DNA of 64,000 nt from Anisus vortex (taxonomy: Eukaryota; Mollusca; Gastropoda; Planorbidae), in contig OX421506.1 in assembly GCA_949126835.1 (NCBI GenBank), positions 18,296,447 through 18,360,446 of the forward strand. Direction: 5' to 3'. The notes under the pieces were generated by a model. It was not told where the DNA came from, searched no databases, and was given only the letters and a program-made list of their open reading frames with translations. How positions within the stretch are numbered: the first letter of the stretch is position 1; each line of letters opens with the position of its first letter. Positions 5,192 to 6,667 of the stretch are shown one piece after another. The position numbers were made by a program, and so were the translations under genes.

Positions 5192-6667
5192 TCAGAATCC
5201 TATGGCGATCCAATTAAATCTCGCACTACTACTGCCATCGCAAGTAACACTGCAATTTGTAGTATCAACACTCGAAACTGAAATTGTATATGAATACAAA
5301 TGCCCAGTTGTAAAAGATGTAAAGATTTTAGGAGCATTCTTAAAGGCAGGGTTAAAATTTATTGTTTGATCCTCACAAAATAAGGAACCAGTTTGGATTA
5401 TAGGGATTGGGATTTGATCCATTTTGTACTTTATGTCAATATCTTCTTTGGCTAATTCGTTGGCCTTGTTCTTCAAATATTGATTTTCTTCATATAATTC
5501 TAAGACTTTAGACTTGAGATCAAAGATGTCTTTGTCATTAGTTGAAATGTAGTTGACAATATCAGAAATTTTGGGTTCGATTGCTTGAATCTCTATAGAA
5601 GCAATAAGTGTCTCTGAATGTTTCTCAGAGTTCAATGCAGAAGCCTCACAATAGAATTCACCAGCATGTTCTTCCAATGGACTGTTCCATGTCAATGTAA
5701 TAAATCCTTGTTCTCCTTCTCTTGGTGAACCTTCAGTGTTACCTTCTACTTGGACAGTGCCATCGTACATAGACTCTATGACTGGAGAATCACATCCAGT
5801 GACACTGGCTATTGTCTCGTTCAAACCTGTTTCTTTGTTTGTCTTTGTCATTACCAAAGAAAGAAGTGTCGAGAATTCAACTTCTCCCTGGGACTGTAAT
5901 ATTGAGGTTGTTCTTTGAGCTTGAAGCTTATTATTCTTGACTGAACATCTTAGTTGTAATTTCTTTGTAAGAACGGGATGAAATATACCTGGATTGGCTG
6001 ACAGCTCTAAATGAGAATATCCTGAAACGAAAACATTTAATTAGTTACATAAAAAAAAGATTTATTGAAATATTTGCTTAAAATATACACAATAATAAAA
6101 ACGTTAGAAATGTAAATATACCGTTCAAATACTTGCCTACTTCGTTTTTCTGATATTTTCCTGACACGCATTTCTTACAAAACTAAAAAATTATTAAGTA
6201 TATATCATAGATCTAGTTTAATGAAATTTTATTTCATTTCTATGTTAATTTTTATCATTGATGTGTTTAGAAGTCCAAGGCTCTGAGAGAATAAAAATCG
6301 TCTAAAAAAAGCGGATACTCTACTATAAATGCGTGTGGGTCTAAATAATCATCTGTATTAAAGGGGCGTCTGTGATGAATTAGTGATTACAAAAATAGAT
6401 AGGTAGGTAGATAGGTCGGTAGGTCGTTGAATAGGTAAAAATATATGGTTAGATAATTAGATATAGAGCCAAATATATACAGAAAACATGCTTAAAAGAT
6501 AATGAAATATCTTGTTTAGAGAATATTGATTATAATATCAAAATAACCAGGACTATTTAATGGTTAGCCTAAATGTTCAAGAGTTAAATAAGTCTCTACT
6601 TACCACTGTTTTGTAAACCAACAGCAACGTTGGAAACCAATGCAATAAAAAGAGCCGACAGAATCAT
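5192..6667 (-). CDS. Secreted IgSF / coiled-coil / H-type lectin protein, copy A
   Basis: Two exons, 6604-6667 and 5192-6021, joined by a phase-1 GT-AG intron (donor GTAAGT, acceptor TTTCAG), give 297 residues. Exon 1 begins at an ATG and encodes only a signal peptide (MILSALFIALVSNVAVG). Residues about 23-165 form one IgSF domain with candidate disulfide cysteines C47 and C146 and the motif EEHAGEFYC. Residues about 166-225 are heptad-like (KVLELYEENQYLKNKANEL), a probable oligomerising coiled coil. Residues about 230-297 fit an H-type lectin domain (Helix agglutinin family): INFNPAF, a VSVxxV-like strand and terminal FNWIAIGF. The plan is that of snail FREP/CREP/GREP immune proteins, but the lectin module is neither fibrinogen, C-type nor galectin. 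Likely a haemolymph recognition lectin; ligand unknown. It lacks 17 residues found in copy B. Confidence 0.8.
6397..6432. repeat. Short GATA/GGTA microsatellite in lectin intron
   Basis: Imperfect repeats of taggtagg/gata type lie in the intron of lectin gene A. The homologous intron in copy B (about 30316-30345) has a different repeat length. Confidence 0.6.

Follow-up and report, generated by a model that had tools for sequence, protein, structure and literature searches.

Two recently duplicated genes of the snail Anisus vortex predicted to encode HREPs, secreted proteins in which a long coiled coil links a V-type immunoglobulin domain to a C-terminal H-type lectin domain

Introduction

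FREP-type lectins bear on the resistance of vector snails to schistosomes. FREPs, CREPs, GREPs and QREPs, the VIgLs, share an immunoglobulin (Ig) part, an interceding coiled coil, a C-terminal recognition domain and secretion, the last of these predicted for the proteins described here; they end in a fibrinogen, C-type lectin, galectin or C1q domain, respectively. The combination of Ig domain, coiled coil and lectin is the layout of snail plasma VIgLs (PMC5433772, section 7), and QREPs join an immunoglobulin superfamily (IgSF) domain to C1q (PMC8878817; PMC10672478). Gastropod proteins with an Ig-like and an H-type lectin domain were named HREPs in PMC8878817, which cites Gorbushin 2019. VIgLs, FREPs or lectins are also treated in PMC10075465, PMC10875847, PMC9334734, PMC7919325, PMC12074976, PMC8861042 and PMC8791074; the available portions of those in which the term HREP was looked for contain no occurrence of it, and a literature search combining HREP, lectin and gastropod returned PMC8878817 alone. 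Here we describe two gene copies, A and B, in 64,000 nucleotides of Anisus vortex DNA (contig OX421506.1, positions 18,296,447 to 18,360,446; the whole analysed stretch is called the window); their predicted products end in an H-type lectin domain, and they are new members of this class.

Domain architecture and gene model of copy A

Copy A encodes a product of 297 aa from two exons on the minus strand, with the following features.

6604..6667, minus strand: exon 1, predicted signal peptide MILSALFIALVSNVAVGLQNS(G), with ATG, hydrophobic core and GTAAGT donor, phase 1
6022..6603, minus strand: phase-1 intron, GT...AG
5192..6021, minus strand: exon 2, IgSF domain, coiled coil, H-type lectin domain and stop
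5573..6019, minus strand: V-type Ig domain, exon-2 residues 1-149, with C47-C146 as the Ig cystine and C98 as an extra cysteine
5417..5569, minus strand: heptad helix of 51 residues (interceding coiled coil), from AlphaFold2 helix 151-201 and the heptad register
5195..5404, minus strand: H-type lectin domain, from PF09458 (27 bits) and matches by profile and fold
4844..4849, minus strand: candidate poly(A) signal AATAAA, by pattern only

The initial annotation had proposed an IgSF domain, a coiled coil and an H-type lectin domain behind a signal-peptide exon and a phase-1 intron, and had suggested a search with the PF09458 hidden Markov model. In the Pfam scan this model scored 27 bits against a cut-off of 24, and comparison of the lectin part by profile matched Helix aspersa agglutinin (HAA) and Helix pomatia agglutinin (HPA) with E values of 1e-6 to 6e-6. 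The fold list of the whole AlphaFold2 model was dominated by VHH domains, and the lectin part was therefore modelled separately; alone, its fold matched discoidin, SLL-2, HAA and HPA, although Foldseek returned no H-lectin match below E 0.001 (best 1.7e-3) and a PDB search with the single protein returned nothing relevant. Pfam, profile comparison, the predicted model and its fold matches thus confirmed the proposed layout, and the ATG, the GTAAGT donor and the GT-AG intron agree with the predicted arrangement of a signal-peptide exon followed by one large exon. The leader is hydrophobic by eye, with a mean Kyte-Doolittle value of 2.2 over residues 2-17. Rfam gave 0 matches within the window.

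Membership in the HREP class

The proteins have an N-terminal Ig-like domain, an H-type lectin domain, as judged from the H-type fold and a conserved cystine pair, and a gastropod origin, the last also seen through their relatives; the domain combination and this origin place them among the HREPs by domain description. The earlier claim of a fourth, unnamed arrangement was rejected, since HREPs are already named and QREPs described (PMC8878817), whereas the resemblance to FREPs, CREPs and GREPs was upheld in the order of Ig domain, coiled coil and C-terminal recognition domain.

Protein searches with a single sequence, a profile or a 20-member profile returned no FREP, CREP or GREP; the last drew few word matches and gave five proteins, all previously found. 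A comparison was also made with 69 plasma peptides chosen from PMC5433772 (Table 1); peptides that were short or overlapped, and some from whole rows, were set aside. Seven of the 69 scored at or below 50 of 1000 shuffles, against ~3.5 expected, and two reached 5 of 1000, namely LTWKNPMSEK of a CREP-like protein and SSDSGKYFCGAHVIGSDGR. One of these two represents a generic Ig motif, and its source protein is described in PMC5433772 as lacking an Ig fold; among the remaining five, two fibrinogen-type peptides matched, falsely, a low-complexity repeat in the relative P0016; GREP peptides were unremarkable (best 45 of 1000). The comparison is only suggestive of Ig kinship with VIgLs, and the domain swapping in one immune family that the initial annotation proposed may or may not have taken place.

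Relatives in other snails and conserved cysteines

A single-sequence protein search found two relatives. A profile search, which scored the 7990 candidates with the most shared words, found 19 proteins (2 of these already in the profile), 18 of them from five snail species: Biomphalaria pfeifferi (3), B. glabrata (4), Bulinus truncatus (4), Lymnaea stagnalis (5) and Physella acuta (2). Lymnaea stagnalis DSC-2 (Q75R56; P0011) and the Biomphalaria entries called DSC-2 were homologous to copy A over its full length, with 35-51% identity. P0016 and P0018 from Bulinus truncatus are HREP-like gene models that open with many DVSRGNESLG-type repeats and are likely gene-model fusions. These two were excluded from the tree, which was rooted at the midpoint and held 19 rows, namely copies A and B and the remaining 17 relatives; it joined A and B with support 100/100 and placed B. 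glabrata P0007 nearest to them (95/93), with four forks open. Pairwise identity averaged 0.44 for the Ig part, 0.34 for the linker and 0.36 for the lectin part, so by alignment conservation across the family is higher in the Ig domain.

Among the 19 rows, C146 was found in all 19 and C47 in all 18 with a letter. C237 and C282 each occurred in 18 of 18 rows with a letter, and on this alignment they are a conserved lectin-domain cystine pair. C278 was confined to the two window copies. If C47 pairs with C146 and C237 with C282, C98 (18 of 19 rows) is left without a partner, and one may guess that it serves as an inter-chain link. In Helix agglutinin, C42 presumably forms the disulphide between its trimers; it occurs in 0 of 20 family members. 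A figure legend in PMC8431231 describes the trimers as connected by three disulphides, without residue numbers.

Copy B and the segmental duplication

The second copy and the duplication comprise the following features.

30527..30590, minus strand: exon 1 of copy B
29063..29943, minus strand: exon 2 of copy B, completing a protein of 314 aa
28706..28711, minus strand: candidate poly(A) signal AATAAA of copy B, by pattern only
1..13118, no strand: duplication block 1, copy A, matching 23825-37042 and starting at or before the window edge
23825..37042, no strand: duplication block 1, copy B
13115..16694, no strand: duplication block 2, copy A, matching 44239-47813
44239..47813, no strand: duplication block 2, copy B
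3115..3471, minus strand: decayed coiled-coil/H-lectin remnant of another HREP-like gene, with stops in all three frames
27005..27304, minus strand: the same decayed remnant in copy B, with stops in all three frames

Block 1 is 97.2% identical over 13257 columns and block 2 98.0%; the introns are 96.0% identical (553 of 576 aligned bases). Reading frame and splice sites are intact in copy B, as in copy A, and its H_lectin match scored 24.5 bits against the cut-off of 24. Copy B holds 17 residues absent from copy A, with sequons at 66 and 70, and has five sequons in total, compared with two in copy A. The difference is likely a loss in copy A, because the nearest relatives (P0001, P0003, P0004, P0005 and P0007) carry residues at that place; P0012-P0014 have short loops. 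A decayed remnant lies 3′ of each gene copy.

Proposed working and alternatives

We consider it very probable that A and B are recently duplicated snail HREP genes for secreted proteins in which a V-type Ig domain is followed by a long coiled coil and, at the C-terminus, an H-type lectin domain. In such proteins the coiled coil would form multimers, the H-lectin domains could make multivalent contacts with glycans on surfaces, and the Ig domain may bind a partner or target, as proposed for FREPs. Several points count against this. The genes are known here from DNA and predicted proteins, and secretion was judged by eye and by hydropathy. The initial annotation had named the lack of an H_lectin or IgSF match as refuting evidence; the H_lectin match lies above its Pfam cut-off, whereas the Ig_3 match in copy A lies under it, the Ig part being recovered through the VHH domains of the fold list. 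The absent pocket residues, the phage fibre matches and the substitution pattern given below belong to the same side.

The alternative that fares best, though we think it rather unlikely, is a non-immune role, for example in egg, mucus or nervous-system secretion, with immunity carried over by analogy: the immune reading draws on FREPs, the Lymnaea member was deposited as DSC-2, a name for which the literature search found no explanatory paper, and egg protection is ascribed to H-type lectins (PMC8878817). On the other side, Ig domain, coiled coil and lectin make up the plasma VIgL layout (PMC5433772), and several gene copies occur per species.

Unlikely as well, and slightly more so, is that the H-type fold was retained as a trimerising or protein-binding head without sugar binding, as in phage fibres. 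R63, W83, H84 and Y89, which we take to be the sugar-pocket residues of HPA, occur in 0 of 20 family members in a gapped loop alignment, and the absence of R63 and W83 was borne out by the profile alignment with HAA and HPA. Phage tail fibres and tailspikes, with pyocin fibre heads, stood level with lectins in the fold list, so that a lectin function cannot be concluded from the fold by itself. Against this, the lectin cystine pair is kept in the family, lectins rank first in sequence alignment, and variable serine/tyrosine-rich loops could make another pocket, possibly of other residues in the gapped loops. The two Helix agglutinins share with the family the fold, C9 and C80 and a Q-x-G-x-x-x-C start; they are single-domain proteins, whereas the snail family is multidomain. 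Because the pocket residues are missing family-wide, the ligand of the HREPs is probably not the alpha-N-acetylgalactosamine (GalNAc) of Helix agglutinin; GalNAc specificity by default was rejected, and given the missing pocket the domain name alone is a poor ground for calling such proteins GalNAc-specific.

That one or both copies are functionless, decaying duplicates we regard as improbable. Exon 2 is 98.0% identical between A and B, no higher than the flanks (98.1% and 98.3%), and the nonsynonymous rate (Ka 0.0225, 15.5 changes) is close to the synonymous rate (Ks 0.0237, 4.5 changes; Fisher p 1.0), so that these values do not demonstrate constraint on the two copies; dead relatives adjoin both copies, and copy A is short of 17 residues. 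Both copies nevertheless keep intact reading frames and splice sites, and the lost stretch sits in a loop predicted to be disordered (model residues 32-44, predicted local distance difference test below 50). A FREP proper is ruled out by the Pfam scan of the copy A protein, which found H_lectin and no fibrinogen domain at E up to 10, and a chance open reading frame (ORF) by the Pfam H_lectin match and the homologous snail proteins.

Returning to the two copies as HREP genes, we would suggest only tentatively that HREPs form a tandem-duplicating arm of humoral immunity in freshwater snails that has been overlooked and is missing from the VIgL censuses published for schistosome vectors. In it, the H-type fold would have been re-tooled away from GalNAc binding, and recent copies would differ in that a glycosylated loop of the Ig domain has been lost. 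The terms H-type and H-lectin are absent from the main text, in the portions available, of two Biomphalaria genome papers that count FREPs, CREPs and GREPs; should HREPs belong to the plasma system of these proteins, the counts would omit a class.

Mobile elements and repeats in the window

A 7.2-kb insertion (37043-44239) sets copy B of the duplication apart from copy A. Its inverted ends of 23 bp are perfect, TTC is duplicated at what in copy A is the empty site, and by these marks it is DNA-transposon-like; its ORF (40078-41586, plus strand) encodes a charged product of 503 aa without a Pfam match. The stretches 2456-4311 and 26287-28144, which flank the dead H-lectin remnants, are 73-85% like parts of this insertion, some inverted. 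Inside the duplication, a reverse-transcriptase ORF (12118-12906, minus strand) is open for 263 codons in copy A, and its counterpart near 36039-36716 in copy B is broken into shorter ORFs. Outside the duplicated block of copy A lies a retrotransposon without long terminal repeats (16842-21494, minus strand) with endonuclease, reverse transcriptase and RNase H domains. The region 54560-64000 contains inverted repeats of ~71-75% identity (54560-55490 with 63143-64000; 55513-55914 with 62481-62906).
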